Assembly: GCA_902585365.1 (NCBI GenBank)
Contig: CACIDF010000005.1
Location: 1-64,000 of the forward strand
Reading direction: 5' to 3'
Length of the DNA stretch: 64,000 nt
From: an uncultured Pelagibacteraceae bacterium
Lineage (GTDB): Bacteria > Pseudomonadota > Alphaproteobacteria > Pelagibacterales > Pelagibacteraceae
Below the pieces are notes generated by a model. It ran no database searches. It worked only from the letters and a program-made list of their open reading frames with translations, and was not told where the DNA came from. Of this stretch, positions 26,097 through 43,267 are shown in pieces. A program made the translations under genes and the position numbers. How positions within the stretch are numbered: position 1 is the stretch's first letter; the number at the start of each line of letters is the position of its first letter.

Positions 26097-27494
26097 ATGT
26101 CAAAAGTAGCAACTAGATTTGCTCCATCTCCGACGGGGCCATTGCATATAGGTGGAGTTCGAACAGCTTTATTTAACTGGCTATATTCAAAAAATCAAAA
26201 TGGTAATTTTTTTTTAAGAATTGAAGATACTGATAAAGAAAGATCCAAAGAGGAATATAGAAAACAAATTATTAATTCACTAAAATGGATAGGTATAAAC
26301 TTTGATGGAGAGGAATATGTACAATCAAAAAAAATAGATAATCATATTAAAGTTGCCCATGAATTATTAAATAAAGGTAGTGCTTATAAATGTTATTGTT
26401 CATCCGAGGAAATTGAGGAACAAAAAAAGAGTGCTAAACAAAAAAAAATTCCATATATTTACGATAGAAAATGGAGAGATAAAAAAGAAACTGATGCTCC
26501 TAAAGACATAAAACCAGTAATAAGATTTAAAAGTAAAATAGAAGGAACATCTATATTAAAAGATTTAGTCCAAGGAGATATTGAAATTGATAATAATACG
26601 ATCGAAGATTTTGTAATCTTAAGAAATGATGGCACTCCGACATATAATTTATCAGCAGCAGTGGATGACCATCAAATGAATATGTCACACATAATTAGAG
26701 GGGATGATCATAAGATAAATACTTTTAAACAAATTCAAATTTACCAAGCCATGAAATGGGAAATACCTTCTTTTGCTCATATACCATTAATACATACAAT
26801 AGATGGAAAAAAGCTATCTAAACGAGACAAAGCCTCAACTTTAGATGATTATTCTAAGATTGGTATTATGCCTGATGCTCTTAGAAATTATCTTCTTAGA
26901 CTAGGATGGTCTTATCAAGATAAAGAAATATTCACTTTAGATGAAAGTATTAAATATTTTAACCTTGAAGGTATAGGTAAATCTCCGTCTAAGCTGGATA
27001 TGAGCAGAATTCTATCTATGAACGAACACTACATTAAGAACATGAATGAAAATGACTTATTCAATCAGCTGATTGAATACTGTAATAAATTTAAGAAAGA
27101 AATAAAAACCGATAAAAAAGATAAAATAAGAAAATCACTGTCGTTTTTAAAAAATAAAGCGAAAACTTTGGAAGATATATTTATCAATGGTCAGTATATA
27201 ATTGCTGATGAAGTAATTTTTAATCAAGATGATATTAAATTAATTGATGAAAAGGCAAAAAAGGTAATTACTGATTTTAAAGCCCAATTTGAAAAGATAG
27301 ATCAACCTAGCAGAAAATTTTTAGAACCAGTTATTAATGGTCTTATAAAATCTAATAACACAAATTTTAAGGGTGTTGGCCAACCTTTAAGAATAGTATT
27401 AACTGGTTCAAAATTTGGACCCGGAATATATGATATTATATTGTCTTTAGGAAAAAAAGAGGTTCAAAAAAGATTAGACGCCAAGATAGCTTGA
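26097..27494 (+). CDS. gltX: Glutamyl-tRNA synthetase
   Basis: This 465-residue class I synthetase charges tRNA-Glu. It has RFAPSPTGPLHIGGVRTALFNW (HIGH-type) at the N-terminus, FLRIEDTDKERS, IIRGDDHKINTFKQIQIY and the KMSKS-type loop GKKLSKRDKA. The C-terminal anticodon-binding helical region ends with LRIVLTGSKFGPGIYDII. Many alphaproteobacteria have two GltX copies, one also charging tRNA-Gln; from this copy alone specificity cannot be settled. The 3' end overlaps the convergent lpxB by 21 nt, with no terminator between them. Confidence 0.96.
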   Translation: MSKVATRFAPSPTGPLHIGGVRTALFNWLYSKNQNGNFFLRIEDTDKERSKEEYRKQIINSLKWIGINFDGEEYVQSKKIDNHIKVAHELLNKGSAYKCYCSSEEIEEQKKSAKQKKIPYIYDRKWRDKKETDAPKDIKPVIRFKSKIEGTSILKDLVQGDIEIDNNTIEDFVILRNDGTPTYNLSAAVDDHQMNMSHIIRGDDHKINTFKQIQIYQAMKWEIPSFAHIPLIHTIDGKKLSKRDKASTLDDYSKIGIMPDALRNYLLRLGWSYQDKEIFTLDESIKYFNLEGIGKSPSKLDMSRILSMNEHYIKNMNENDLFNQLIEYCNKFKKEIKTDKKDKIRKSLSFLKNKAKTLEDIFINGQYIIADEVIFNQDDIKLIDEKAKKVITDFKAQFEKIDQPSRKFLEPVINGLIKSNNTNFKGVGQPLRIVLTGSKFGPGIYDIILSLGKKEVQKRLDAKIA

Positions 27495-28610
27495 AACTAC
27501 AGCAGCAGCTTCAGCGGACGAAGAGGTTTTAGATTTGATTTCATTTAATGTATTACTAACATCATAAATTTGTTTTTTAATAAGTTCTGGTTTTTTTAGA
27601 AAATAAACGACAGATCTAAAGATTTCTTTTGAATTACATTCATTTTGAATTAATTCAGGTATTATTTCTTTTTGGTTAATAATATTAATTATATTAGCGA
27701 ATTTTACTTTAACTAAAAATTTTACAATAAAAAAATTTATCAAATTCATTTTATAAATAATAATTGATGGTACTTTTGAATTACAAATCTCTAAAGAAAC
27801 AGTGCCGGATTTAGCGACTGCAAATACAGATTTTGACAATATTTGAGATTTAATATTTTCATCCGATATAACGTCAACATTAATTAATTTTTTTTTTTTT
27901 AATTCATCTTTTATTAAATTTTTATTTTGGTCAGTTGCATGAAAAACAAAATAATATTGATTAAATTTTTCATTCATTAGTTTGATAAAATTTAATAATA
28001 TTGGTAATAATATATTTGTTTCTGATGTTCGGCTTCCAGCAAATAAGGATATTATTTTTTTATCGTTTTTTATTAAATTAGATAAATCAGTCTTAATATT
28101 TTCTTTATTTTCGAGTAATGGATGGCCCACAAAAGTGTTTTTGATGTTTTCTTTATCAAAGTATTTTTTTTCAAAATTGAATAGTAAAAGAATATGGTCT
28201 AAAAATTTTTTAAATTTTTTAACTCTTCCCTCTCTCCAGACCCATACTTGAGGAGCAACATAGTGAATGGTTTTAATCTTGGGATTATTTTTTTTAACTT
28301 TTTCAGCAACTCTTAAAGTAAAATCTGGACTATCCACACTTAGTAATATGTCAGGATTGAATTCAATTATTTTTTTTACAGTGGTATTAATTTTTTTTCT
28401 GATTTTTAATATATTTAAAATAACGCTAGTAAAACCAATGTAAGTTATTTCTTTAAGATCATAAATAGATTTGACACCTTGTGAATTTAAATAATAACCG
28501 CCAACACTTAAGTATTCTATATTGGAATGATTTTGTTTAAGTTTAGCAACTACTGTTGATGCCAATTTATCTCCCGAAGGTTCGCCAGTTAAGATAAAAA
28601 TTTTTTTCAT
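27474..28610 (-). CDS. lpxB: Lipid A disaccharide synthase
   Basis: This 378-residue GT19 glycosyltransferase joins UDP-diacylglucosamine and lipid X to form the lipid A disaccharide at the inner membrane. Visible marks are ILTGEPSGDKLASTVV at the start, SVDSPDFTLRVAEKVK, HYVAPQVWVWREGRVKK, FVGHPLLE and SLFAGSRTSETN. The later motif AKSGTVSLEIC plus VPSIIIYKMN form the nucleotide-sugar site. Last gene of the lpxD-lpxA-lpxI-lpxB group (4-nt overlap with lpxI) and convergent with gltX. gltA, often next to lpxB in relatives, is absent. Confidence 0.96.
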   Translation of the reverse strand: MKKIFILTGEPSGDKLASTVVAKLKQNHSNIEYLSVGGYYLNSQGVKSIYDLKEITYIGFTSVILNILKIRKKINTTVKKIIEFNPDILLSVDSPDFTLRVAEKVKKNNPKIKTIHYVAPQVWVWREGRVKKFKKFLDHILLLFNFEKKYFDKENIKNTFVGHPLLENKENIKTDLSNLIKNDKKIISLFAGSRTSETNILLPILLNFIKLMNEKFNQYYFVFHATDQNKNLIKDELKKKKLINVDVISDENIKSQILSKSVFAVAKSGTVSLEICNSKVPSIIIYKMNLINFFIVKFLVKVKFANIINIINQKEIIPELIQNECNSKEIFRSVVYFLKKPELIKKQIYDVSNTLNEIKSKTSSSAEAAAVVSSYLGV

Positions 28611-29401
28611 TTTACAGATATAAACATCCTATTTTTATTGGCAAAGCTAATACATTTGTTTTTATCCAAAAAAATGTGTCGCTTGTTTTTTACAACAATT
28701 CCTTTTAACCCAGCAGTTTTGCTTTGTTTCATTGTTTTTAAACCAACTGTAGGTAGATCAATTCTAAGGTCTTGTTTTTTCTTTGGAAATTTAACCATAA
28801 CTCCATGATTTTTAAATTTTTTGTTTCTGCTTTTTTCTAACATTTTTTTAGTGCCGCTTTTGCTTTCTATTGAAACAACTTTATTGTTTCTTACTACAAC
28901 ACCTTGACTAAAATTATATTGTTTTAAACTATTTAATGTTTTAATTGCTTTTTTGATATCCAATTTATCTTGTTTATTTGGTTTAATTTTTGAATAATTG
29001 CCTTTTTTAAGTGTTAACTCCGGATTAAATTTAAGTGAGTTTTCAGTTTTAATTTGATTTTGTGCTAATATTTTTATAATTTCTTTAAGAATTGCAGCAT
29101 CCCCAAGTTTGGATGCTTTTATTATTCTTGGAATATAATAAACACCTTTAAGATCTAGCTTTAATTTAGAAAGGTTTGGTTTATTGACTTTTCCAGCAAA
29201 TAACACATTTTTACAATTATTTTTCTTCAGAATATTAATAATTTTACCAAATTGGCCTAGAGAAACAGAATAAGTTTTTTTATTTTGTCTAAATTTTTTA
29301 GTTTTTGATAAATCTATGATTAAATATTTTATTTTTTTTTTCTTTATAGTTTTAAGAATTTGATTTGGAAAATCGGTATCGCCAAAAATTAATCCTATCA
29401 T
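28607..29401 (-). CDS. lpxI: UDP-2,3-diacylglucosamine pyrophosphatase LpxI
   Basis: This 264-residue enzyme (formerly DUF1009) hydrolyses UDP-2,3-diacylglucosamine to lipid X and UMP, the step done by LpxH in enterics. The N-terminal nucleotide-binding half begins IGLIFGDTDFPNQIL. The C-terminal half contains QGVVVRNNKVVSIESKSGT and the catalytic block RIDLPTVGLKTM followed by GLKGIVV. The chain is highly basic. Its location between lpxA and lpxB confirms the role. Alphaproteobacteria typically use LpxI. Confidence 0.93.
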   Translation of the reverse strand: MIGLIFGDTDFPNQILKTIKKKKIKYLIIDLSKTKKFRQNKKTYSVSLGQFGKIINILKKNNCKNVLFAGKVNKPNLSKLKLDLKGVYYIPRIIKASKLGDAAILKEIIKILAQNQIKTENSLKFNPELTLKKGNYSKIKPNKQDKLDIKKAIKTLNSLKQYNFSQGVVVRNNKVVSIESKSGTKKMLEKSRNKKFKNHGVMVKFPKKKQDLRIDLPTVGLKTMKQSKTAGLKGIVVKNKRHIFLDKNKCISFANKNRMFISVK

Positions 29402-29402
29402 T

Positions 29403-30182
29403 TTATGAAAAAGGTGTGCAAATAGATCTTTTTTTGTCTTTAGTAATAAAGTTAATCACATCTTTTACCAAAGAATTTTCTTTAAAAACGCCATTTAATT
29501 TATCAATATTTTCATTAATGTTTTTTGATGCAAATATTTTCTTATAAGCCTCCGACAATTCCATTATTATTTTATTTTCAAATTTTGCTCTTCTTAAACC
29601 AATTAAGTTTAACCCTTGTAAAACATTCCTATTTCCCGTTGAAAGGCCATAAGGAATAACATCATTTAAAACTCCTGTCATACCTCCTATCATAGCCATT
29701 TTACCTATTCTTGTGAATTGTTGAACTGCGGAATTTCCTCCTATAACGACACTATCATCAATAATAACATGTCCTCCTAATGGAACATTGTTTGCTATGA
29801 TAACATTATTACCTACCATACAGTCGTGCGCAACATGAGAAGAGATCATAAAAAGACAATTATCTCCAATTTTTGTTGATCCACCTCCACCAACTGTCCC
29901 TGGATTTACGGTTACATATTCTCTAAATTTATTATTATTTCCAATAATTAACTTGGTATCTTCACCGTTATATTTTAAATCTTGTGGATCATTACCTATA
30001 GATGCAAAAGGATAAAATTTATTTCCACTTCCAATTCTAGTATTTCCAACAATGTTTACATGGGAATGAATAACAACATCTTCACCTATTTCAACATTTG
30101 GACCAATCACACTAAAGGGACCAACGCTAACACTTGAATCAACTTTAGCATTTTTATCTACTATTGCAGTTTTATGTATCAT
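29403..30182 (-). CDS. lpxA: UDP-N-acetylglucosamine acyltransferase LpxA
   Basis: This 259-residue left-handed beta-helix enzyme transfers 3-hydroxyacyl from ACP to UDP-GlcNAc, the first step of lipid A synthesis. Hexapeptide repeats run from residue 2 to about 185 (for example VGPFSVIGPNVEIG). The catalytic His is in SSHVAHDCMVGNN, the GGHVIIDDSVVIGG coils follow, and NVLQGLNLIGLRRA marks the start of the helical C-terminal domain. Overlaps lpxD by 4 nt. Confidence 0.96.
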   Translation of the reverse strand: MIHKTAIVDKNAKVDSSVSVGPFSVIGPNVEIGEDVVIHSHVNIVGNTRIGSGNKFYPFASIGNDPQDLKYNGEDTKLIIGNNNKFREYVTVNPGTVGGGGSTKIGDNCLFMISSHVAHDCMVGNNVIIANNVPLGGHVIIDDSVVIGGNSAVQQFTRIGKMAMIGGMTGVLNDVIPYGLSTGNRNVLQGLNLIGLRRAKFENKIIMELSEAYKKIFASKNINENIDKLNGVFKENSLVKDVINFITKDKKRSICTPFS

Positions 30183-31156
30183 TTATTTTCTCTTAAAAAA
30201 TTTTTTAAGTTTTTTGCTGGATACCCCATTACTTTAGTATTGTCAGGAATATCTTTTATTACTCCACTACCTCCACCAATTTGAACATTATTACCTATTT
30301 TAAGATGACCTGAAATTCCAGCTTGACCACCTATCATAACATTATTCCCTATAACCGAACTTCCAGCAAATCCTACTTGACCAGCTATTATACAATTTTC
30401 ACCTATCTTTACATTGTGAGCAATATGGATTTGGTTGTCTAAAAAGGTATTTTTTCCGATCACTGTATTAGAGAGTGATCCACGGTCAATTGTTGAACTA
30501 CAACCTATTTCAACATTATCCTCAATAATAACTACACCAATTTGTGGGTATCTAAAATTAGCTTTTTTGTTAGGAAAAAAGCCAAAACCTTTTTTACCTA
30601 TTATGCACCCATCTAAGATATGAACATTATTTTTAATTAATGAGTTTCTAATTATAACATTTGAACCAATTGTACAGTTATCACCAATTGATACATTGGT
30701 TTCAATAATAGAATTATGTCCAATTAAACAATTAGATCCAATTTTAACATTCTTGCCAATTAAAACATTTCTTCCAAATTTTACTTTATTTTTAAATTGT
30801 ATATTTTCAATTTTTTCAACATTAACGTCAAAATCATCTGTAACAGAATTTGGATAAAATTTTTTAGTTATTTTAGCAACATCTAATAAAATTTTATCTG
30901 AAATTATTGATTTGCAAGTAGTTGGTAATAGTGATTTTAAATTTTCACTGGTCACACAAAATGATGCATTTGTAGATTTAGCAAGTTCACCATACTTTTT
31001 TGAATGTAAAAAAGTCATGTCACCTTTTTTTGACGAACTTAAATCTTTAATATCATTTATTTTTTCGTCTGGAAAAGATGAGTCTTTTATAGATATCAAT
31101 TTGAGTAAATCATTAATTTCGTAAGGTCCTGTGTTTTTAAAAAAAGGATTTTTCAT
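30179..31156 (-). CDS. lpxD: UDP-3-O-acylglucosamine N-acyltransferase LpxD
   Basis: This enzyme of about 325 residues adds the N-linked hydroxyacyl chain, third step of lipid A synthesis. An N-terminal uridine-binding domain with KGDMTFLHSKKYGEL precedes many hexapeptide repeats (IGKNVKIGSNCLIGHN and similar). The signature GKKGFGFFPN and catalytic His in IHIAHNVKIGENC are visible. The ATG at 31156 starts MKNPFFKNTGPY; a TTG 18 nt upstream is less likely. It sits between fabZ and lpxA, reversed relative to the usual lpxD-fabZ-lpxA order, after a 54-nt gap that is large for this operon. Confidence 0.95.
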   Translation of the reverse strand: MKNPFFKNTGPYEINDLLKLISIKDSSFPDEKINDIKDLSSSKKGDMTFLHSKKYGELAKSTNASFCVTSENLKSLLPTTCKSIISDKILLDVAKITKKFYPNSVTDDFDVNVEKIENIQFKNKVKFGRNVLIGKNVKIGSNCLIGHNSIIETNVSIGDNCTIGSNVIIRNSLIKNNVHILDGCIIGKKGFGFFPNKKANFRYPQIGVVIIEDNVEIGCSSTIDRGSLSNTVIGKNTFLDNQIHIAHNVKIGENCIIAGQVGFAGSSVIGNNVMIGGQAGISGHLKIGNNVQIGGGSGVIKDIPDNTKVMGYPAKNLKNFLRENK

Positions 31157-31210
31157 TAGTAAGTTTAATATCAAAACTTACTTTAAATGCTTATCAAGAT
31201 TTATTGCTAA

Positions 31211-31657
31211 TTATTTCCTATCGACAATTGTTGCAGACCACACGGCATCAGCCATTTTTATATTTTGAACAAATGCTTCTCCTTTGTATTTCCATACGCG
31301 TCCATGTGATCTAATTGCTTCAATTTTTAACTCCAATTTACAATCGGGTAAAACTGGGTTTCTAAATCTAGCTTTTTCAACATTCATCAAATATACTAAT
31401 TTGTTTTCATAAGTCTCTTTATCTAATCCATGAGCAGTTAATGCAGCGGCAGCTTGCCCGAAAGCCTCGACTATTAAAACACCAGGCATAACAGGTTGGC
31501 CTGGAAAATGTCCTTGAACAAAAAAACTATCTTTTTTTACATTAACTATTGCAGTTGCTGAAAATAACTTTTTAATATCAACTAGTTCATCAATTAATAA
31601 CATAGGTTCTCTATGTGGTAACAAATTTTCTATATCTTTTTTCGATAAAGTAGTCAT
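31211..31657 (-). CDS. fabZ: 3-hydroxyacyl-ACP dehydratase FabZ
   Basis: This 148-residue hot-dog fold enzyme dehydrates 3-hydroxyacyl-ACP in fatty-acid elongation, competing with LpxA/LpxD for the same substrates. The catalytic pair is His50 in GHFPGQPVMPG and Glu64 in LIVEAFGQAAA. LLPHREPMLLIDEL and FRNPVLPDCKLEL are further marks. It lies 3 nt after ompH and before lpxD, in the reverse order from most proteobacteria. Confidence 0.96.
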   Translation of the reverse strand: MTTLSKKDIENLLPHREPMLLIDELVDIKKLFSATAIVNVKKDSFFVQGHFPGQPVMPGVLIVEAFGQAAAALTAHGLDKETYENKLVYLMNVEKARFRNPVLPDCKLELKIEAIRSHGRVWKYKGEAFVQNIKMADAVWSATIVDRK

Positions 31658-31660
31658 ATT

Positions 31661-32182
31661 TTAATTAACTTTGATATCTTTAATTTCCTTATTTGTTAAT
31701 GATAATATTTCATCAGTTATTTCAATTTCTTTCTTTCCCATAATAATATTTTTTTTTTGTAGTATTAAACTTATTGAGTTTTTTTTTGCATATTCTTTTA
31801 GAATTGGTGATAATTTAGAAATTAATTTATTAGTAGCGCCTATCCTCAATTTATTTATATTATCTCTTGATTTAACTTGTTCTCTTTGAAAATTAATAAT
31901 TTCCGATCTAAGACTAGTAAGCTCTTTTTGAAAATCTTCCTGACTCATAATATTTTTTTGGGCTATTATTTTTTTTTCTTTTTTTTTTAAAATTTCGTCG
32001 TTTTTTTTAAATTTTTCTAAATCTTTATTATAAATTTTTTCAAGTTGGTTTTTTATAGATTTACCTGCGATAGATTCCTGCATTATTTTATCTACATTTA
32101 AATAAACAATTTTTTGTTCATCAGCTAATGAGGAGAAAATTATTAAAAAAAAAAAGATAACTATTAAAAATCTTTTTAGCAT
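31661..32182 (-). CDS. skp: OmpH/Skp-family periplasmic chaperone
   Basis: This 173-residue protein has an N-terminal signal peptide (about 1-20, FLIVIFFFLIIFSSLA) and a long lysine/glutamate-rich coiled coil (about 40-125) of the OmpH type, with IVYLNVDKIMQESIAGK at the start of the mature form. Such trimeric proteins hold unfolded outer-membrane proteins for BamA. Its 1-nt overlap with bamA supports this. Identity is from domain shape and context more than from residues. Confidence 0.85.
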   Translation of the reverse strand: MLKRFLIVIFFFLIIFSSLADEQKIVYLNVDKIMQESIAGKSIKNQLEKIYNKDLEKFKKNDEILKKKEKKIIAQKNIMSQEDFQKELTSLRSEIINFQREQVKSRDNINKLRIGATNKLISKLSPILKEYAKKNSISLILQKKNIIMGKKEIEITDEILSLTNKEIKDIKVN

Positions 32183-34416
32183 TAAAAAGTTGTTCCAATA
32201 TTAAATTGAAAACCTTCAAACTCATCTGTACTTTTTTTTTGGAGTGCATGAGAAAAAGTTAAATTTAAAGGCCCTACTGGCGTCCACCACTCAACACCTG
32301 CTCCTGTTGAAACTCTTAAATAATTAGAATCGTCAAAATCTGATGATCTATAATCTGTACCCCAAACATTTCCAAAATCTAAAAAATAATTGAATTCGAA
32401 ATTTTGAAGATTTGGCGCTACCATAGGAAGATTGCTTGTAAAACTTAAAGCTGCTGCGTAATTTCCTCCAACATGGTCGTCCCCTTGATCAACTGGTCCT
32501 ATTCTGCCTGGTTTAAAACCTCTTAGTCTTTTTCTTGGTAGTCCAATTCTTTCTGATATTCTAACATCATCAGATAAGCCGGTAGTATTTTTTAAGAACA
32601 AACCAACACTTGCCGTTGTTTCAGATATGGTTAAGTAATGATCATAAACGTATCCTGATGTAATAGTATTGCTTTCTGAAATTAATGGTAAAGTTTGAAA
32701 AAATTGACTTCTAAATCCATCTGATGTTTGAAATCTTTGATTTCTTACATCATAATCAAACGCATATCCTATATTAGACGTAAAATAATTACCCTCTTGT
32801 TTTTTTATAGAATTGCTAGCCAAAGAATTTGTTTCTAATTTTTCTGCAACAGTTTTAAATGAGGGACTGAAAAATAAATTATCGTATTGCTCAAATTTAG
32901 TCCCAAAGCTAAATCCAGCTTCACTAGAATCATATCCACTGTCATCCATTTTATCATTATTAATAGCAAAAAAACTTGTTGATAGTGATTTTTCAGTATA
33001 ATTAAAATTAGGATTATTAACTGTAAACTCTCCTTTTACTCTTTCTTCACTTAAAGACAAAGACGACACAAGACCAATACCTCTACCCATAAAGTTTTTT
33101 TCAGAGACAGAAAATCCTATTGTTCCACCATCATTTCCAACACCCGCAGAAGCTAAAATTTCACCTGTTGGTTTTTCCTCAACCGTAATTTTAATATTTT
33201 TTTGTTGGGAATTATCAATAGAGATAATTTCGTCTTTTACATCACCAAATATTCGTAAGGCTTTCAAATTATTTATAGATTTAGCATGTAATAATTTATT
33301 AAAAGGATCGCCCTCGTCAACCTCGAGCTGGTTTCTAATTACTTTTTCTTCAGTGATATTATTACCAAATATGTCTATTCTATTTACAAAAAACTTGTCA
33401 CTTTCTATAACTGTAAATTTTAAATCTAACTTATCATTATTCACTTCATCAATTTCTATTGTTGCGTCAATAAAATCATAAAGTCTTGAAACTGAAATTT
33501 TATCAATTTCTTTAATTACTTTATTTATTTCATTTAATGAATATTTTTTATCCTTAAGGTCTTCTATAGAATTTGTAACTTCTTTAAAATCTTTAGGATC
33601 ATAATCAATTGGTATATCAAGTGTAGCGTTATTTATGGTATATCTATTTCCAGAATTAATATTATATATTAGCTCAAAAAAGTTATCGTTAAAAATTGCT
33701 GAGGAACTTTCTATTTCAACATTATAATAACCTTTATTTAAATAATAATTTTTTAATAGTCTCTTATCTAGCTCAATTCTATTAACATCCAAGTACTTTT
33801 TTTTACTTATAAACTTCCAAAACTTGTTTTCTTCACTTACAATTACACTTCTTAATTTTCTATCTTTATAAAATTTATCTCCTGTAAATTTAATATTTTT
33901 TATTAAAGCTTTTTCACCAGTTTCAATAACATAGATAAGATCTACTGTGTCATTTGTATTTTCTTTAATTTTGACTTCAACTGTAGCAAAGTAATATCCA
34001 GATCTACTAAGAGAATTTTTTATTAAAACAACATCTTGTTCTGCAGTAAATTTATCAAATGGACTTTTATCTTTAAGATTTAATCCTTTTAAAATTCTTT
34101 CTGTGTTTTCTTTTGAAGCTACACCTTCCAAAACAATTGTTTGAATAATTTTTTTTTCTTTAACGTTAATTATAAGAACATTATTTTCAACTTTTAATTT
34201 AATATCAGAAAAAAAATTTGTATTATATAAATCGCCTAATATTTGATTAATTTCGTTCTCTGTATAATCTTTACCTAATTTAATATTACCAAATGCTAAG
34301 ACACTTTCCTTACTTACTCTTTTATTATTTTCTAATTTAATATCATTTATAATTTCAGATTTGGCTGAAAATAATATAAAATTTAACAATAGCAGTGCTA
34401 AAAGAATTTTTTTCAT
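32182..34416 (-). CDS. bamA: Outer membrane assembly factor BamA
   Basis: This 744-residue Omp85 protein inserts beta-barrel proteins into the outer membrane. A signal peptide (about 1-20) is followed by five POTRA domains (about 22-420) and a 16-strand barrel. The FKPGRIGPVD segment carries the conserved loop 6 RGF-type motif (LRGFKPGR). The chain ends in Phe after FQFNIGTT, the usual C-terminal beta-signal. It starts inside the dxr stop (4-nt overlap), so the rseP protease gene usually found between dxr and bamA is missing here. Confidence 0.96.
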   Translation of the reverse strand: MKKILLALLLLNFILFSAKSEIINDIKLENNKRVSKESVLAFGNIKLGKDYTENEINQILGDLYNTNFFSDIKLKVENNVLIINVKEKKIIQTIVLEGVASKENTERILKGLNLKDKSPFDKFTAEQDVVLIKNSLSRSGYYFATVEVKIKENTNDTVDLIYVIETGEKALIKNIKFTGDKFYKDRKLRSVIVSEENKFWKFISKKKYLDVNRIELDKRLLKNYYLNKGYYNVEIESSSAIFNDNFFELIYNINSGNRYTINNATLDIPIDYDPKDFKEVTNSIEDLKDKKYSLNEINKVIKEIDKISVSRLYDFIDATIEIDEVNNDKLDLKFTVIESDKFFVNRIDIFGNNITEEKVIRNQLEVDEGDPFNKLLHAKSINNLKALRIFGDVKDEIISIDNSQQKNIKITVEEKPTGEILASAGVGNDGGTIGFSVSEKNFMGRGIGLVSSLSLSEERVKGEFTVNNPNFNYTEKSLSTSFFAINNDKMDDSGYDSSEAGFSFGTKFEQYDNLFFSPSFKTVAEKLETNSLASNSIKKQEGNYFTSNIGYAFDYDVRNQRFQTSDGFRSQFFQTLPLISESNTITSGYVYDHYLTISETTASVGLFLKNTTGLSDDVRISERIGLPRKRLRGFKPGRIGPVDQGDDHVGGNYAAALSFTSNLPMVAPNLQNFEFNYFLDFGNVWGTDYRSSDFDDSNYLRVSTGAGVEWWTPVGPLNLTFSHALQKKSTDEFEGFQFNIGTTF

Positions 34417-35579
34417 CTTTGTTGGGATATTACACTTAAAGATTTTGTTTTCAATCTTACAAACTCATTTAATTTTTCAATTTGTGTCAAATTATTCAGC
34501 TTTTTTTGCCTGTATTTTAAGAAATCTTTATGGCTAATGATTTGCTTAAGTTTGGTAGAAATTTCATCAAAACTTATCTTATTTTTTAAAAATAGGTCTA
34601 CCAATTCATCGTTGACTGATACTAACAAAGTTTCAAATAAAGTATCATTTTTTGGTACAAAATTTAAAATTTTTACTAAAGGATATTTTTTTAAATTTAC
34701 TAAATTTAAATTTAAATCATTTAGTAATTTAAAGTTTATTTTTGAAGATTTAATTTTATAATTCTTATTATTGTATAATGTATTAAAAATTGGAATTTTC
34801 ATATCGGTATCGTGAGCAACTAATTTGATCAAACCATTATTAAATTTAATGATAGCATGCACATAGGATTTTGGATGTATTAATATTTTAAATTTACTTA
34901 AATCAATTGAAAAAATTTTTTTTGCTTCAATAACTTCGAATACTTTATTCATTAAAGTCGCAGAGTCAGTGGAAATTTTTTTGCCCATTTTCCAATTAGG
35001 ATGGTTAGTTGCTAATTTAGGTGTCTTTTTAATTTTTTTGTTTTTTAAATTTAAAAAAGGACCCCCAGATGCTGTAATAATTACTTGATCTATAATTTCT
35101 GGATTAACATTTTTTATTTCAGACCATATAGAGAAATGCTCAGAGTCTACAGGTATAAATTTTGTTTTGTGTTTATCAATTTCTTTTTTTATTAAACTCC
35201 AGCCACAAATAATCGACTCTTTATTAGCAATTGCAATTATTTTAGTTTTTTTAATAATTTTAATGGTTGGTTTTAAGCCATCAAACCCAGATATTGAACT
35301 CATTGTATAATCTAATTTAGAATTAATCATTTTATCAATTTTACTCAAATCATTAATTATATTAACTTTTTTAAATTTTTTTTTTAAAATTTGGTAGCTC
35401 TTTTTGTTTGTAACAATTACATTTTTTACTTTAAACTCTTTAATTTGTTTTGAAAGTAACTTATAGTTTTTATTTGCCGTTAGAAGTAAAATTTTAAAAT
35501 TTTTTTTATCTTTTCTCACTATATCAATTGTTTGTTTTCCTATTGAGCCAGTCGATCCTAAAATTGCAATTTTTTTCAT
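34413..35579 (-). CDS. dxr: 1-deoxy-D-xylulose 5-phosphate reductoisomerase
   Basis: This 388-residue NADPH enzyme makes methylerythritol 4-phosphate, the second MEP step. The N-terminal dinucleotide motif is AILGSTGSIGKQTIDIV; AIANKESIICGW, PVDSEHFSIW, ITASGGPF, NHPNWKMGKKISTDSATLMNK and IHPKSYVHAII follow in family order and contain the metal and substrate ligands. It overlaps cdsA by 1 nt and bamA by 4 nt. With ispDF at 11.5 kb this shows the MEP route is used. Confidence 0.97.
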   Translation of the reverse strand: MKKIAILGSTGSIGKQTIDIVRKDKKNFKILLLTANKNYKLLSKQIKEFKVKNVIVTNKKSYQILKKKFKKVNIINDLSKIDKMINSKLDYTMSSISGFDGLKPTIKIIKKTKIIAIANKESIICGWSLIKKEIDKHKTKFIPVDSEHFSIWSEIKNVNPEIIDQVIITASGGPFLNLKNKKIKKTPKLATNHPNWKMGKKISTDSATLMNKVFEVIEAKKIFSIDLSKFKILIHPKSYVHAIIKFNNGLIKLVAHDTDMKIPIFNTLYNNKNYKIKSSKINFKLLNDLNLNLVNLKKYPLVKILNFVPKNDTLFETLLVSVNDELVDLFLKNKISFDEISTKLKQIISHKDFLKYRQKKLNNLTQIEKLNEFVRLKTKSLSVISQQR

Positions 35580-36232
35580 TAATTAATAATTTTAAAGATT
35601 AAATACGATGCAGGAAAAGCAAAAATCATTCCATCTATTCTATCAAGTAGACCACCGTGTCCAGGAATTATTTTTCCAGAATTCTTTATTTTAGATCTTC
35701 TTTTAAAAAAGGATATTAGTATGTCACCGAATTGGCTAACAAAAGATATAAAAATGATAAAAATAAAATTATAAATATTAAATATTTCAAATCTATCAAT
35801 AATGTAATAATCATAATAGTTTAGAAAAAAGGTAGCTGTAAAAATTGATAGCAAAAATGCACCGATCATACCCGCATATGTTTTATTTGGACTAATTTTG
35901 GTCAGTTTAGGACCTTTAAATATTTTACCAAATACATAACCTCCTATGTCAGTAGATATACAAATTATTAATATTAAAAGAAAAAATAAATATTGAGCAT
36001 CACCATGATTACGTAAAAGATAAATAATATAGAAAGAGGCTATTATATAAATAAGTCCAAAGATATTGTAATTTTTTCCTTTACTCATTAATTGCCATTC
36101 ATATAGAGAAATAATTGAGCAAATTAATATCAAAGAATTAAATAAAAATGATCCTTTAATTATAAAAAAAATTACGATAGGAAGCAAAATAATTGAACTT
36201 AATATTCTTTTAAAAAACTCATTTTTCATCAA
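35579..36232 (-). CDS. cdsA: Phosphatidate cytidylyltransferase
   Basis: This 217-residue inner-membrane enzyme makes CDP-diacylglycerol from phosphatidate and CTP, the branch point for phospholipids. About six hydrophobic segments precede the family signature near the C-terminus: SFFKRRSKIKNSGKIIPGHG followed by GLLDRIDGMIF. Shorter than the usual 260-285 residues, apparently trimmed in the N-terminal membrane region. Overlaps uppS by 4 nt. CTP comes from PyrG, also in this window. Confidence 0.94.
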   Translation of the reverse strand: MMKNEFFKRILSSIILLPIVIFFIIKGSFLFNSLILICSIISLYEWQLMSKGKNYNIFGLIYIIASFYIIYLLRNHGDAQYLFFLLILIICISTDIGGYVFGKIFKGPKLTKISPNKTYAGMIGAFLLSIFTATFFLNYYDYYIIDRFEIFNIYNFIFIIFISFVSQFGDILISFFKRRSKIKNSGKIIPGHGGLLDRIDGMIFAFPASYLIFKIIN

Positions 36233-36903
36233 ATTTTTCCAAAGTTTCGTTTAGTTTTTTTAAACATATTTAAAATTTTAATATAATCTTTTTCATTAAA
36301 ATCTGGCCATAATTTTTTTTCAAAAAAAATTTCAGAATATGCTAATTGCCAAAGAAGAAAGTTACTTAATCTTTTTCTATTTCCCGTACGTATTAATATA
36401 TCTGGATCAGGTATATTTTGAGTATAAAGATTTTTTGAAATATTTTTTTCATTAATTTTTAATTTCTTTATTTTTAAATAATTTACAGTATTAATTATCT
36501 CACTTTTAGAACCATAGTTTAATGCTAAATTTATTTGCATTCGTTTATTTGACGACGTTAGCTTTTCAGAAAAATTAAGCAATTTATTTAATTTTTTATC
36601 AAATTTTTTTTTTCCAATTATATATAATTTGATTTTTTTATTATTAAGTTCTTCTATTTTACTTGATAAAAAACTATCTAATAGAGAAAATAGATAATTT
36701 ATTTCATTCTTTGGCCTTTTCCAGTTTTCTGTGGAAAAAGCGTATAGTGTTAAATACCTAATCCTTTTTTTTAAACTTTCCTTGATAATTTTTTCTACGG
36801 TTTTAATACCTGCTTTATGTCCAAAATTTCTTGATTTACCTCTATTTATTCCCCAACGACCATTACCATCCATAATAATAGCAACATGCTTAATCGGGTT
36901 CAT
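36229..36903 (-). CDS. uppS: Undecaprenyl diphosphate synthase
   Basis: This 224-residue cis-prenyltransferase extends farnesyl diphosphate with IPP to the C55 carrier used for peptidoglycan and LPS. The P-loop region HVAIIMDGNGRWG with catalytic Asp, GHKAGIKTVEKI, LYAFSTENWKRPKNEI, LALNYGSKSEI and DILIRTGNRKRLSNFLLWQ are present. Overlaps frr and cdsA by 4 nt each. Confidence 0.96.
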   Translation of the reverse strand: MNPIKHVAIIMDGNGRWGINRGKSRNFGHKAGIKTVEKIIKESLKKRIRYLTLYAFSTENWKRPKNEINYLFSLLDSFLSSKIEELNNKKIKLYIIGKKKFDKKLNKLLNFSEKLTSSNKRMQINLALNYGSKSEIINTVNYLKIKKLKINEKNISKNLYTQNIPDPDILIRTGNRKRLSNFLLWQLAYSEIFFEKKLWPDFNEKDYIKILNMFKKTKRNFGKI

Positions 36904-37451
36904 ATAGTCATTATTTCTTTTTCTTTTGAAAAAACTTTATCATCTATTAATTTAATATGTTCGTCTGTTAAACTTTGTATTTCTTTTTCTTTTTTTTTTT
37001 CATCATCCTCTGAGATTTCTTTGTTTTTTAATATTGATTTAAGGCTATCATTTGCCTCTCGTCTAATATTTCTTATAGAGACTTTACATTTTTCACCCAT
37101 TGTCTTTACTATTTTTTTCATCTCATTTCTTCTCTCTTCACTAAGGTCTGGTATTGGTAGCCTGATTAATTGTCCATCAATTTGAGGGTTCAATCCAAGT
37201 TCTGATTTTTTAATTGAAGAATCTATTAAATTAACATTATTTAAGTCCCAAACTTGAATATTAATCATTCTTGGTTCTGGGGTAGTAATAGTCCCTAACT
37301 GATTTATTGGCATTTTTTGACCATAAACATCAACTTTTACTAAATCTAACATACTTGCATTTGCTCTTCCTGTTCTCAATGAACTTAATTCTTTATTAAA
37401 AACTTCAATAGTTTTACTCATTTTTTGTTTATAATTTTCTGTAACAAACAT
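36900..37451 (-). CDS. frr: Ribosome recycling factor
   Basis: This 183-residue factor splits post-termination ribosomes with EF-G. The family pattern is clear: SSLRTGRANASMLDLVKVDVYG, PINQLGTITTPEPRMI, RLPIPDLSEERR and VSIRNIRREAND. Length is typical. It follows the tsf stop with zero spacing; pyrH, which usually lies between, is not here. Confidence 0.96.
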   Translation of the reverse strand: MFVTENYKQKMSKTIEVFNKELSSLRTGRANASMLDLVKVDVYGQKMPINQLGTITTPEPRMINIQVWDLNNVNLIDSSIKKSELGLNPQIDGQLIRLPIPDLSEERRNEMKKIVKTMGEKCKVSIRNIRREANDSLKSILKNKEISEDDEKKKEKEIQSLTDEHIKLIDDKVFSKEKEIMTI

Positions 37452-38303
37452 CTACTCTCCAATTTTTATTCTTAAAAAGTCGTTTATTTTTAGACCATCA
37501 ATATTTAGTTCTTTAATAATATCTTTTACTTTTTTTTTTGGTTCCATAACCCATTGTTGATTTAATAAGGAGTTATCTTCCTTAAATTTTTTAACTTTAC
37601 CTAAACTAATTTTTTTAACTATATCCTCAGGTTTTCCTAAATTCTTTAGTTCTTCATTAATTAGCTGCTCTTCTTTTTTTAAAACGTCTTGATCTATACC
37701 CTCAACATCAATGGCTAGAGGGTTTGATGCTGCAATATGCATACTGAGCTGTTTACCAAACGTCTTTAAATCATCAGAATCATCATTAGTATCAACTGAA
37801 ACTAAAACACCTAATTTTGATAGATTGTCTTTTACTACTGTATGATGATATTTGAAAATCTTTGTATTTGTTTGATTTAAAGTTTTGGATCTGCCAAGTG
37901 TAATTTTTTCACCTATCTTTGAAATTTGTGCTAATAAATTATCCTCAACAGTATTACCATTTTTCATTTTTGAAGATAAAAGTTTTTCTCTATTAGATTT
38001 AACTTTGTTGTTTAAGTCGGCTAATTCTTTTGCAAAAATTATAAAATCCTCATTTTTTGCAACAAAATCTGTCTCACAATTAATTTCTAAGATAGACGAA
38101 TTTTGATTATCTTCAGAAATAGCTATAACACCCTCGTTGGCAGATCTTGACATTTTCTTAGAAGCTTTTGATATACCTTTGACTCTCAATATTTCAACTG
38201 CTTTATCGATGTCATCTTTGGACTCATCTAAAGCAGAGCTGCAATCTTTAAAACCGGCTCCACTTAAAGATCGTAATTTTTTAATTTTTTCAATATCAGC
38301 CAT
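37452..38303 (-). CDS. tsf: Elongation factor Ts
   Basis: This 283-residue nucleotide-exchange factor recharges EF-Tu. The N-terminal UBA-like domain reads [20 protein letters not shown] (most homologues have TGAGMMDCK). [13 protein letters not shown] is the core signature, and [11 protein letters not shown] lies in the dimerisation part. It follows rpsB after 10 nt and is probably controlled with it. Confidence 0.96.
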
Positions 38304-38313
38304 TTTTGAAAAT

Positions 38314-39078
38314 TTAATTTAACTTTTTTATTGAAGTAGAGTTATCGTTTTTTTTTGGCTTTTGTTCTATTTTCTTCTCTTCCTCTTTTGGAGCTTCTTT
38401 TTTTGCGTTATTTACAGTCTCTTTAATTAGGCTACAATAAAGGTCAATTGATCTCCTTGCATCATCGTTTCCAGGTATTGGAAAATCTATCCCGTCTGGA
38501 TCTGAATTAGTATCTAAAATTGCTATGATTGGAATATTTAACTTAATAGATTCTTTAATGGCTAAAGACTCATAATTTGTATCTATAATAAAAACTAAAT
38601 CCGGAATTTTTTTCATTTCGGAAATGCCACCTAATGATCTTTGAAGTTTGTCTCTTTGTATTCCCATCTTTAAGAGTTCTTTTTTTGTAAAACCCCTGTT
38701 CTCAGCTTTTAAGTCTATATCTATTTTTTGAAGCTTTTTTATTGAATTAGAAATTGTTCCCCAATTTGTTAGCATGCCACCAAGCCATCTATAATTAACA
38801 TAATATTGTCCAGTATTCTTAGCCAATTCAGCAATTGATTCTGATGCTTGTTTTTTAGTAGAGATGAATAATATTTTCCCATTATTAGCAATTACTTCAT
38901 AAATTTTTTGCAATGCTTTATTTGTTAATTCTAATGTTTGAGTTAAATCAATAATATGAACAGAGTCTCTCTTTCCAAAAATATACTTTTTCATTTTTGG
39001 ATTCCATCTAAGAGTTTTGTGACCTAAATGGACGCCTGCCTCTAGTAATTGTTCAATTGATAAATTTGGTATCTTCAT
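38314..39078 (-). CDS. rpsB: 30S ribosomal protein S2
   Basis: This 254-residue small-subunit protein starts [20 protein letters not shown] and shows [63 protein letters not shown] and [15 protein letters not shown]. The C-terminal 30 residues are a lysine/glutamate tail. First gene of a 13-gene run to lpxB. A structured leader lies upstream (39083-39160). Confidence 0.97.
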
Positions 39079-39082
39079 ATTT

Positions 39083-39160
39083 TTTCCCGGTTATTCCGCC
39101 ACAATTATTTCCACTTAAGGACCGGAGGTATAAAACCACTAACTGTGTGAGTTTTTTATG
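39083..39160 (-). promoter_or_regulatory. Structured 5' leader of rpsB, possible S2 autoregulatory element
   Basis: On the minus strand two hairpins can be drawn in the 123-nt spacer before rpsB. The first, at 39132-39155, pairs AAAAC with GTTTT and CAC with GTG around loop ACAGTTA, with one bulged T. The second encloses 39087-39125, with CCGGT pairing ACCGG and closing an internal purine-rich loop GGAAATAATTGTGGCGGAAT. The second ends at GGGAAAAA, the ribosome site 7 nt before the ATG. In gammaproteobacteria rpsB-tsf is known to be repressed by S2 at a structured leader; a similar role here is inference. Confidence 0.5.
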
Positions 39161-39201
39161 AATGTTAATATTAATTTTATTAATTAAAGGCAAGTAATTT
39201 A

Positions 39202-42200
39202 TTAAAAAATAGATGTAGAAATACCTTGATTTTTAATGGAATTTAAAATGTTTTTATCCACAAAACGCTTATTTTTCAATTTGAATGTATATTTTTTATT
39301 ATTTTCAGAAAGTTCGAACAAAACTTCAACGTTCCCTTTATTGTTTAAAATTTTCGACAAAATATCCAGGTCTGAAAAATTGTTAATTTTTATTTTTAGA
39401 TTATTAATTGGTTTATTCAAAATATCATCTAAAGGTATAATTTTTTTAACATTAACTCTAATTTTTTGATCTACGTCATTTTGATTTTTAAATAAAGTTA
39501 TAATAACAGATTTACCTTCCTTGATATTTTCTCTATTTAATTCAAAAATATCTGAAAAAACAAATAATTCAAAAATGCTACCTAGATCTGAAAACTTAAT
39601 TATTGCGTAAGGTGTTCCTTTTTGAGTTTTTTTTTCCTGAATTTTTAAAATTGTTGCCGCAACCATATTCTCTGAATTATTTTTTTTACTAATAAAATCA
39701 GAGTATTTTTCAATATTGTATTCAGTAAATATATCCTTATACTGATTCAAAGGATGGTCTGAAAGATAAAAACCCACAGTTTCGAATTCTTTCAACATTT
39801 TATCTTGAAAACTCCACTCCGGTAAATCTACAAGAATTCCTAGATTATTAAAATTATCTTTATCAGCAAATAATTCGATTTGATTTTGCAGTTTATTCTC
39901 AAATAAATTTTTTGATTTAAGTATCATATTAGGTATAGACTCGTAAAAAGCCCTTCTGTTATTAGAAATACTATCAAATGCACCAGCTTTAGCCAGACCT
40001 TCTAATTGTAATTTATTTATATCTTTAGGGTTTACTCTCTTAAGGAAATCTGAGATAGATTTAAATTTCCCATTATCCTCTCGTTCTTTAATAATATTTG
40101 AAACAGCCTCATAACCAACATTCTTTATAGCTCCTAATGCATAATAAAAATTATTATTATTAGAATAAAAATCTGGAAAACATTCGTTTATATCTGGTCT
40201 AATTATATTAATATTTAATCTTTTTATCTCCTCACAAAATTCACTTAACTTTTTTTGATTAGACAATTCCATAGACATAGATGCAGCAAAGAATTCCTCT
40301 GGAAAGTATGTTTTTAAATATGCTGTTTGATAAGCAATTATTGCATAAGCTGCTGCATGGCTTTTATTAAAACCATATTCAGCAAATGGCTCTATTTTCA
40401 AAAAAATTCCGGCTGCTATGTCTTTACTTATTCCATTTTTATAAGCGCCCTCGACAAATCTGGTTTTTTGTCTTTCTAACTCAGCTCTTTTTTTTTTACC
40501 CATAGCTCTTCTCAGGAAATCTGCCTCACTAGCAGTAAACCCTGAAAGTTCTTGAGCAATTTGCATAACCTGTTCTTGATATATAATTACACCATAAGTT
40601 GGTTTTAATATTTTTTCTAATTTTGGATGTAGGTAATCCGGTTTTTTTAAACCGTGCTTGCAATCATTATAAATCGGTATATTGCTCATTGGACCTGGTC
40701 TGTACAATGCTACTAGGGCTATAATATCTTCAAGATGATTAGGCTTCATTTGTGTTAATGCTTCTCGCATACCTGAGCTCTCTAGCTGAAACAAACCAAC
40801 TGTTTTGCCACTAGATAAAAGTTCAAATACTTTATGATCATCATATTTAATATTTTTGATATCAAAATCTTTATGTTTATTTTGTAGTAGTATTTGTGTT
40901 TTATTTATAACTGTTAAAGTTTTTAAACCTAAAAAGTCAAATTTAATTAGTCCTGCGTTTTCTGCAGAATACATGTCGAATTGTGTTGAGGGTAATAATA
41001 AATTTGAAGATGGATCTTTATAAAGTGGTACGGTTTCAGAAAGATCCTTATCAGCGATTACTACACCTGCTGCATGTGTAGCAAAGTTACGATTTAACCC
41101 TTCTAATTTTAGTGATAAACTAATTAGGCGCTCTACTCTTTTGTCTTCCTTTATAAGTTTTTGGAGCTTTGGTTCTGAATTAATACACTGATTTAAATTC
41201 ATTGGTCTTGATGGATCGAATGGTATCATTTTGCAAATACTATCTACAAATCCATAAGGCAAACCCATAACACGACCCACATCTCTTATAACCATTCTCG
41301 CTTTTAGTTTTCCAAAAGTAATAATATGTGCAACAGATCCTGGATATTTATTTTTCAAATATTCAAAAACTAAATCTCGTTTTTCCTCACAAAAGTCTAT
41401 ATCAAAATCAGGCATAGAAATTCTATCAGGGTTGAGAAATCTCTCGAAAATTAAATCAAACTTTAATGGGTCAACGTCTGTAATAGATAAGCACCAAGCA
41501 ACTAGTGAACCAGCTCCCGAACCTCTACCTGGTCCTACAGGAATACCCTTATTTTTTGCCCATTTTATGTAATCAGAAACAATTAAAAAATAACTAGCAT
41601 AGTTCATTTTGCAAATTATATTAATTTCGTGATCAAGCCTCTTTTGATATTCATTAAGCTTAAAACCAGATTTTTCTTCGTCAATGTTTTTAAACCTTTC
41701 TTTTAAGCCTTCCTGAGCATTTTTTTTTAGAATTTCGTCAGGTGTAAAATTTTTTTCAGATCCAATATTTGGTAACAAGGGTTTTGAAGTAACAGGTCTA
41801 TAACTGCATCTAAGATGTAAATTAAAATTATTTTCTAATGCCTCTGGTAGATCAGAAAATAATTTATTCATCTCATCGTTGTTTTTAAAATAATGATTAC
41901 TTGAAAATTTAATTCTATTCTTATCGTTTATATAATTTTTTTTTCCAATACACATTAATACATCGTGTGCATCATGTAATTCTCTCTCTAAATAATAAAC
42001 TTCATGTGAAGCAATAATCGGTATATCTAATTCTCGAGACAAACTTAGATTAAATATTTCTAAATCTTTCTCGTTAACATCATTATGTCTTTGAATTTCT
42101 ATGTAAAAATTATTTTGAAGTAATTTTTTTAAAAAAATATAAATTTCTTTAATCTCATGTCGCCTATCCCTTTTAAATAATTCACCAACTAAACTATTTA

Positions 42201-42600
42201 AACCACCTAGAGTTACTATTAAACCGTCTTTGTATTGTTTAAGATCATTAAATTCGCAGAATGGTTCATTAAAATCTTTATGTTTAAGGTATGAACGTGA
42301 AGATAATTTAACCATATTTTTGTACCCTAAATCATTCTTTGCAATTATAGGCATTAAGCCTGTCAGTTCTTTATATTTAAATTTGATTTGGGAACCTATA
42401 ATTGGTTGAGTTTTAGATTTTGATACTGTTTCAGAAAACTCTAACGCTCCACACAAATTAGAAGTATCTGAGATACCTATTGATTTTATTTTATTATTTT
42501 TACAAAATTTTTCTAGATCTTCAATTTTTATTGCACCTTCACAAATAGAATATTGGGTGTGTAATTTATAATGATTGAAAGATTTTTTAATTTCTTGCAT
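39202..42600 (-). CDS. dnaE: DNA polymerase III subunit alpha
   Basis: This replicative C-family polymerase has about 1132 residues. The N-terminal PHP domain begins NHYKLHTQYSICEGAIKIED; the palm carries VGPGRGSGAGSLVAWCL and catalytic acidic residues in PDFDIDFCEE. Later marks include ATHAAGVVIAD, LIKFDFLGLKTLTVI, ALYRPGPM, YGVIIYQEQVMQIAQELSGF and EYGFNKSHAAAYA. An OB fold lies near the C-terminus (KKTQKGTPYAIIKFSD). I chose the ATG at 42600 (MQEIKKSF); another ATG 21 nt upstream is possible. It is last in the nuoA-dnaE run and overlaps lolD by 14 nt. Confidence 0.97.
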   Translation of the reverse strand: MQEIKKSFNHYKLHTQYSICEGAIKIEDLEKFCKNNKIKSIGISDTSNLCGALEFSETVSKSKTQPIIGSQIKFKYKELTGLMPIIAKNDLGYKNMVKLSSRSYLKHKDFNEPFCEFNDLKQYKDGLIVTLGGLNSLVGELFKRDRRHEIKEIYIFLKKLLQNNFYIEIQRHNDVNEKDLEIFNLSLSRELDIPIIASHEVYYLERELHDAHDVLMCIGKKNYINDKNRIKFSSNHYFKNNDEMNKLFSDLPEALENNFNLHLRCSYRPVTSKPLLPNIGSEKNFTPDEILKKNAQEGLKERFKNIDEEKSGFKLNEYQKRLDHEINIICKMNYASYFLIVSDYIKWAKNKGIPVGPGRGSGAGSLVAWCLSITDVDPLKFDLIFERFLNPDRISMPDFDIDFCEEKRDLVFEYLKNKYPGSVAHIITFGKLKARMVIRDVGRVMGLPYGFVDSICKMIPFDPSRPMNLNQCINSEPKLQKLIKEDKRVERLISLSLKLEGLNRNFATHAAGVVIADKDLSETVPLYKDPSSNLLLPSTQFDMYSAENAGLIKFDFLGLKTLTVINKTQILLQNKHKDFDIKNIKYDDHKVFELLSSGKTVGLFQLESSGMREALTQMKPNHLEDIIALVALYRPGPMSNIPIYNDCKHGLKKPDYLHPKLEKILKPTYGVIIYQEQVMQIAQELSGFTASEADFLRRAMGKKKRAELERQKTRFVEGAYKNGISKDIAAGIFLKIEPFAEYGFNKSHAAAYAIIAYQTAYLKTYFPEEFFAASMSMELSNQKKLSEFCEEIKRLNINIIRPDINECFPDFYSNNNNFYYALGAIKNVGYEAVSNIIKEREDNGKFKSISDFLKRVNPKDINKLQLEGLAKAGAFDSISNNRRAFYESIPNMILKSKNLFENKLQNQIELFADKDNFNNLGILVDLPEWSFQDKMLKEFETVGFYLSDHPLNQYKDIFTEYNIEKYSDFISKKNNSENMVAATILKIQEKKTQKGTPYAIIKFSDLGSIFELFVFSDIFELNRENIKEGKSVIITLFKNQNDVDQKIRVNVKKIIPLDDILNKPINNLKIKINNFSDLDILSKILNNKGNVEVLFELSENNKKYTFKLKNKRFVDKNILNSIKNQGISTSIF

Positions 42601-43267
42601 TGATGCTAGATACTCTACCATCAATTAAACTCAATTTACAATCAGACATATCGGCAAAATATCTATTATGGGTTGCAAATATAATTATTCTTTTTTTATT
42701 TTTAAGATTGAATAGTAATTTGAATATATCTTTTGCATTTTTATGATCTAAGTTTCCTGTAGGTTCGTCTGCTAAAATTATATCAGGCGAATTTATTAAT
42801 GCTCTTGAAATAGCGATTCTTTGAGATTCGCCTCCAGATAACTCGTTCGGGAAATGTTTTAATCTTTTATTCAATCCAACTCTACTAATCATATTTTTTG
42901 CGTCCAACATAGCTTTTTTTAAATTATTATCTAAAGATAATCTTGCTAGATAAACATTTTCTAAAGCCGTAAAATCTGACAATAAATTCTTATCTTGATA
43001 AATTATACCAATTTTCCTTGATCTTATATTGTCTCTTTCATCGTTGTTATCATTAATTTTATAATTATTAAATTTTATAAAACCGCTTGATGGTTTATCT
43101 ATTAAAGAAATTAAATTTAATAAAGTTGATTTTCCAGAGCCAGATGGTCCAATTAGAGAATATATTTTACCTGGTTTAAATATAAAGTTTATATTTTTTA
43201 ATACCTCAATCTTCTTTGATGAAAAATAATTTTTGTAAATATTTTTAAGTTCAATCATATTATTCAT
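42587..43267 (-). CDS. lolD: Lipoprotein-releasing system ATP-binding protein LolD
   Basis: This 226-residue ABC ATPase powers extraction of lipoproteins from the inner membrane toward the LolA carrier. Walker A is [12 protein letters not shown]-loop GIIYQDKNLLSDF, signature LSGGESQRIAISRAL, Walker B IILADEPTGNLDHK, H-loop FATHN. The LolD-type NELSGGE spacing and GNLD distinguish it from uptake ATPases. An alternative ATG 9 nt downstream (MIELKN) would remove the 8-nt overlap with lolC. Confidence 0.95.
   Translation of the reverse strand: MNNMIELKNIYKNYFSSKKIEVLKNINFIFKPGKIYSLIGPSGSGKSTLLNLISLIDKPSSGFIKFNNYKINDNNDERDNIRSRKIGIIYQDKNLLSDFTALENVYLARLSLDNNLKKAMLDAKNMISRVGLNKRLKHFPNELSGGESQRIAISRALINSPDIILADEPTGNLDHKNAKDIFKLLFNLKNKKRIIIFATHNRYFADMSDCKLSLIDGRVSSINARN

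Follow-up and report, generated by a model that had tools for sequence, protein, structure and literature searches.

The structured RNA closest to the element considered here is the rpsB motif, which Meyer et al. (2009, BMC Genomics 10:268) described from the dnaE-rpsB spacer of Candidatus Pelagibacter ubique. The text on this motif in that paper presents a helix P1 capped by P2 and P3, with a pseudoknot between the junction J2-3 and a 3' extension of P1; for Cand. P. ubique it gives a P2 of 3 bp, a P3 of 2 bp and a spacer of 129 nt. The same RNA was met in strain HIMB5, as mentioned in a passage of a 2019 paper. In E. coli, according to the relevant lines of a review, the rpsB leader is repressed by S2 in a manner that requires S1, and the operator does not include the ribosome site.

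This E. coli rpsB-tsf leader (Rfam RF00127, t44) and the SAR11 leaders described below have in common a helix ending in GUGG-N-GG and followed by UAACC, as well as a potential pseudoknot (GGGGU able to pair with ACCCC in E. coli). The E. coli leader differs in that its ACCCC strand ends 24 nt before the AUG, with a GAGG of its own in between. RF01815, the rpsB family of Rfam, gives no match in E. coli, and t44 gives none in the genome under study, nor in a permissive scan of its dnaE-rpsB spacer, so that homology of the two leaders rests on shared anatomy.

The rpsB leader and its known relatives

The window analysed here is a stretch of 64,000 nucleotides from an uncultured Pelagibacteraceae bacterium. 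A first-pass annotation, made from the sequence of the window alone, had pointed to a 123-nt spacer ahead of rpsB and had proposed that it forms an S2 autoregulatory leader of two hairpins. The spacer is present, running from dnaE to rpsB (Table 1). Covariation, the place before rpsB and a published family all bear out a structured cis-regulatory rpsB leader; the two-hairpin fold finds no such support, and the element was already on record in this clade.

Table 1. Features of the rpsB leader and its surroundings, with positions in the window.
Feature	Position	Strand	Evidence or remark
dnaE	39202-42624	-	
dnaE-rpsB spacer	39079-39201	-	123 nt
Promoter-like pair, TTGCCT (39193-39188), 17 nt, TATTAA (39170-39165)	39165-39193	-	8/12 matches
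P1, 5' strand, CUCACACAGUU, unpaired A at 39148	39141-39151	-	compensatory changes, RF01815 alignment
P2, 3 bp, GGU (39137-39135) with ACC (39129-39127)	39127-39137	-	74.1% of cells paired
Pseudoknot, 5' strand, CCGGU, junction J2-3	39121-39125	-	CCGGT in 101/101 leaders
P3, 2 bp, CC (39120-39119) with GG (39112-39111)	39111-39120	-	70.2% of cells paired
P1, 3' strand, AAUUGUGGCG	39097-39106	-	compensatory changes; RNAalifold
Pseudoknot, 3' strand, ACCGG	39087-39091	-	ACCGG in 100/101 leaders; 8 nt ahead of the ATG start codon
rpsB, ribosomal protein S2, 254 aa	38314-39078	-	TIGR01011, E = 1.8e-93
12 genes downstream of rpsB: tsf, frr, uppS, cdsA, dxr, bamA, Skp-like, fabZ, lpxD, lpxA, lpxI, lpxB	27474-38303	-	

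At curated cut-offs, Rfam reports only tRNAs in the window. In a permissive search of positions 38980-39300, RF01815, which we take to derive from the 2009 description of the motif, matched over its full length (1-132) at 39151-39069 with 31.1 bits (E = 1.5e-4), under its gathering score of 40. Three further families, rli34 and, on the opposite strand, rimP and RAGATH-12, gave matches at the spacer under their cut-offs (E of at least 2.5), which were taken as chance. The leader element ahead of rpsB is already published in SAR11, to which HIMB5 presumably belongs as well. It has in common with the published motif the gene, the dnaE-rpsB spacer, the P1/P2/P3 arrangement, the J2-3 pseudoknot, the 3-bp P2 and the 2-bp P3. 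It differs in its score: among the genome under study and its relatives, 22 of 61 genomes match RF01815 at E <= 0.001 and none exceeds the gathering cut-off, whereas across the class 117 of 190 genomes match and 48 pass. The gathering score thus shuts out all SAR11 members seen, though the motif was described from SAR11.

A covariance model (R1) constructed from 47 SAR11 leaders in this analysis matches 164 of 197 Pelagibacterales genomes, with a single site per genome among the matches listed, a tally that is partly by construction as the model was made from leaders of the genomes searched. A protein search for rpsB in genomes drawn the same way also gives 164 of 197, and the two sets, compared by eye among the matches listed, agree. 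There are 33 genomes without a match in either search, of which 15 have a rated completeness of at least 90% and low contamination. The ten highest-scoring R1 sites all end at the rpsB start codon. This larger sample confirms a leader that was originally described from a single SAR11 genome.

The leader is conserved, covaries and is located directly ahead of rpsB. We consider it probable that it represents the rpsB motif as it occurs in SAR11, and that excess S2 binds its pseudoknot fold, blocks initiation and thereby lowers S2 and the products of the downstream genes; S2 as the ligand, repression, the occlusion step and the effect on the downstream run are what we infer for it. A general translation enhancer or an mRNA stability element that does not sense S2 appears unlikely, as it is at odds with the single site per genome among the matches listed, with the position of all ten inspected sites at the start of rpsB, and with the repression by S2 that the review text reports for the E. 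coli counterpart.

Fold of the leader

Comparison across SAR11 was based on the window and 100 of the 163 other rpsB-bearing genomes, hand-picked for spread. The resulting 101 leaders include 90 that are distinct from P1 onward, 47 of which were aligned. By these comparisons the leader fold is predicted to be a pseudoknot, made of P1, small P2 and P3 helices and the CCGGU/ACCGG pairing, and not a pair of hairpins.

The 5' strand of P1 was located by an xxCAC anchor (CGCAC in 79 leaders, ATCAC in 13, CTCAC in 6 and AACAC in 3), which determines or restricts the five leading letters of that strand; the unpaired A of P1 is found in 101/101 leaders, but it is part of this anchor. When sequence anchors and constant offsets, rather than a fit to pairs, defined the columns, P1 showed 128 cells in which both partners had changed among the 90 distinct leaders, against a mean of 46.8 and a maximum of 65 in shuffles that leave the relatedness of the sequences in place, and 86.9% of its cells paired, compared to 76.0% after shuffling. 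This count, which takes in two poorly kept inner positions, does not rise above shuffles in how many pairs have two-sided changes (9 of 12, reached by 177 of 1000 shuffles) or in how many pair types occur (22, reached by 386 of 1000). In the 47-row alignment, 94.7% of P1 cells are paired, with 66 two-sided cells versus 21.4 in shuffles and two-sided changes in 7 of 10 pairs, a number reached by 33 of 500 shuffles. The full structure, for the same 47 distinct leaders, is paired in 90.1% of its cells and changed on both sides in 11 of 20 pairs, with 79 two-sided cells versus 24.7 shuffled and only 29-47% of cells paired in slid registers; two rows (L104 and L107) are off by one column at the pseudoknot and were counted as unpaired there. 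RNAalifold, unaided, recovers 9 of the 10 pairs in P1. The single mismatch in P1 of the genome under study is U39150 x C39098.

P2 and P3 are the weak helices of a three-stem junction. Two-sided changes occur in all three pairs of P2, where the columns are unsure since the length of P2 varies, and in one cell of P3. In one SAR11 leader (L081:205-303) the P2 region exceeds that of the window by about 20 nt.

The first-pass annotation had drawn instead an upstream stem at 39132-39155 and, next to it, a stem closed by CCGGT/ACCGG, and had suggested covariance analysis of the rpsB leaders of Pelagibacterales. Such analysis reveals compensatory change in P1 and leaves the upstream stem at the level of shuffles, with 10 two-sided cells compared to 8.1 and with slid registers scoring as high on covariation. 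All 8 pairs of this stem form in only one of the 90 distinct leaders, that of the window itself, and at least 7 in 17 of 90. The proportion of its cells that are paired drops from 75% in the genus of the window to 44% among the remaining members of its family, and is down to 29% in the other family. The upstream stem, which shares bases with the conserved and covarying P1 and competes with it, was rejected on conservation, and the two-hairpin architecture is not confirmed.

That two independent hairpins regulate initiation is therefore very improbable, even though at least 7 of the 8 stem pairs are available in those 17 leaders and both hairpins are part of the nested fold of lowest energy for the leader in the window. 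With the upstream stem this fold reaches -13.7 kcal/mol, against -10.1 for the form with P1 when the pseudoknot helix is left unpaired, a difference of 3.6 kcal/mol that covers nested helices. Nested folding yields the upstream stem because a nested structure can hold either P1 or the CCGGT/ACCGG helix, not both. Furthermore, the folding energy is no better than that of shuffles, of which 177/200 fold at least as well as the leader and 438/500 at least as well as the 123-nt spacer, and it therefore gives clear support to neither drawing, the support being comparative. Single-sequence folding energy, which ranks the nested fold ahead of P1 when the pseudoknot is left out, was accordingly set aside as uninformative evidence. 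The structure of the leader exceeds chance by covariation, and not by energy.

The pseudoknot helix

The pairing of CCGGT with ACCGG had been rightly recognised in the earlier annotation, and its 5 bp are possible in 100 of the 101 SAR11 leaders, with CCGGT in 101/101 and ACCGG in 100/101 (ACCGA in the remaining one). Since P1 is conserved, this helix is a pseudoknot and not the closing stem of a hairpin, which corrects the fold in the window. Within Pelagibacterales it is near invariant, hence without covariation inside the order; two-sided changes were found only outside Pelagibacterales.

For comparison, 90 of the 115 RF01815 hits outside Pelagibacterales were taken from other alphaproteobacteria (the best 30 by score and 60 hand-picked), a set biased to leaders visible to Rfam. 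Start codons, assigned by script, were found in 82 of these; the exact 5-bp pseudoknot is present in 79 and the other three have ACTGG. A t44 set was assembled from E. coli and 26 hits from the same phylum, of which 14/27 pass the exact 5-bp search and 22/27 a looser signature. The pairs are CCGGT/ACCGG in 77 and CTGGT/ACCAG in 2 of the 79 other alphaproteobacterial leaders, and GGGGT/ACCCC in 9, CGGGT/ACCCG in 3 and TGGGT/ACCCA in 2 of the 14 t44 leaders, but the script required perfect complements, which in part builds these pairings in, and it may in some leaders have chosen the wrong copy. E. coli, for instance, has two GGGGU copies, of which the script used the later and the family layout implies the earlier.

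Distance to the start codon and proposed mechanism

In SAR11, the gap between ACCGG and the AUG is 6-10 nt in 101/101 leaders. A separate GGAG, GAGG, AGGA or AAGG inside this gap is found in only 3 of them, and a GGAG overlapping the pseudoknot strand itself in 18. The other alphaproteobacterial leaders have a median gap of 17 nt (9-24 nt) and a separate Shine-Dalgarno sequence in 70/79, and the t44 set has gaps of 8-24 nt and a separate Shine-Dalgarno sequence in 14/14. Short gaps are also seen outside SAR11, i.e. 9-11 nt in 5/79 other alphaproteobacteria and 8 nt in 1/14 of the t44 set, and the layout is therefore fixed in SAR11 rather than unique there. The lack of a separate Shine-Dalgarno sequence in 98/101 SAR11 leaders is a further difference from the rpsB motif as published, the point being absent from the rpsB text of Meyer et al. 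(2009). The 3' end of the 16S rRNA in the genome of the window has the usual CCTCC. Motifs resembling Shine-Dalgarno sequences are weakly enriched in the window, before 8 of 61 open reading frames versus 3-6 of 61 at four control offsets, with start codons chosen mechanically; this scarcity makes their lack before rpsB less striking than it appears.

The place of the pseudoknot strand, where a Shine-Dalgarno sequence would be expected, makes direct occlusion of the ribosome landing site by the folded leader plausible. The leader would form P1, topped by the short helices P2 and P3, and CCGGU in J2-3 would pair with ACCGG beyond P1 to form the pseudoknot. By analogy with E. coli, S2 in excess over 30S subunits would bind this fold and stabilise it. 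The folded form would then bar the 30S subunit from the start codon, because ACCGG occupies the place of the Shine-Dalgarno sequence, and less S2 would be made, as well as less of the products of the genes behind it, through coupling or mRNA decay. It is tempting to go one step further and to speculate that the S2 operator has been merged with the ribosome-binding site in Pelagibacterales, with ACCGG replacing the Shine-Dalgarno sequence and S2 repressing by direct occlusion. This proposal is tentative, and we hold it to be somewhat doubtful. The ribosome site lies outside the operator in E. coli and S1 is needed there, and occlusion may therefore not be the mode of the family. If the two were merged, the repression step would differ from that in E. 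coli, where the review passage puts the ribosome site outside the operator, and genome streamlining would have fused operator and initiation signal. No mention of such a merged site in SAR11 was found in the portions of the open-licence literature that bear on it. The layout suggests a testable difference in S2 feedback in streamlined genomes with little Shine-Dalgarno signal.

Transcription of the leader and the downstream genes

The promoter-like pair in the spacer (Table 1) would start a transcript about 7 nt before P1. Pairs scoring at least 8 occur in 67 of the 90 distinct leaders versus 28% of mononucleotide shuffles, at scattered distances of 2-37 nt from P1; a stricter promoter scan does not report the TTGCCT/TATTAA pair. 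The leader may thus start its own transcript.

No terminator-like site was detected in 39000-39400. A small RNA in place of a leader might be envisaged, given that Rfam types both RF01815 and RF00127 as sRNA and that tff is annotated at this place in E. coli, but the element ends 8 nt ahead of the AUG, is linked to rpsB at all ten sites inspected and has no terminator-like site in that interval, which makes this reading highly improbable. Transcription attenuation within the leader is the least credible of the explanations considered, again in view of the missing terminator-like site in 39000-39400.

The leader, read as an S2-responsive element, precedes 13 consecutive genes on the minus strand, starting with rpsB and including bamA and lipid A genes, in agreement with the earlier annotation. 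Family matches in NCBIfam were obtained for 9 of the first 10 genes of the run (rpsB, tsf, frr, uppS, cdsA, dxr, bamA, fabZ and lpxD), those of cdsA and dxr being under the curated cut-offs. The eighth gene has no NCBIfam match and is presumably Skp-like, and we take the last three to be lpxA, lpxI and lpxB. Junctions from rpsB to lpxB are at most 10 nt or overlapping, except for 36 nt before lpxD. This spacing suggests that the 13 genes form one transcript, in which case S2 level would perhaps reach the whole run, BamA and lipid A genes included, and ribosome supply would be tied to envelope genes.

Gene order within the run departs from the usual one at two points. The usual order is rpsB-tsf-pyrH-frr, and pyrH (UMP kinase) is missing between tsf and frr (37451-37452). 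A search with TIGR02075 in 33 Pelagibacterales genomes gave matches over the cut-off in all three genomes of one family (f2) and weak ones only in the 30 of the other (f1), the genome under study included; the weak matches, mostly in frames of about 370-425 aa, were taken for other amino-acid kinases. For the UMP-CMP kinase family no match over the cut-off was obtained in any of the 33 genomes, and the weaker matches probably represent adenylate kinase, for which they were taken. The second point concerns rseP, which often sits between dxr and bamA and is not located there in the window (34413-34416). TIGR00054, which we take to be RseP, is over the cut-off in 29 of the 33 genomes, the four others being the three of family f2 and one further genome (G071). 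Loss of rseP, suspected from gene order, was rejected, as TIGR00054 has a match elsewhere in the genome of the window (G000:C23:5289-6371).
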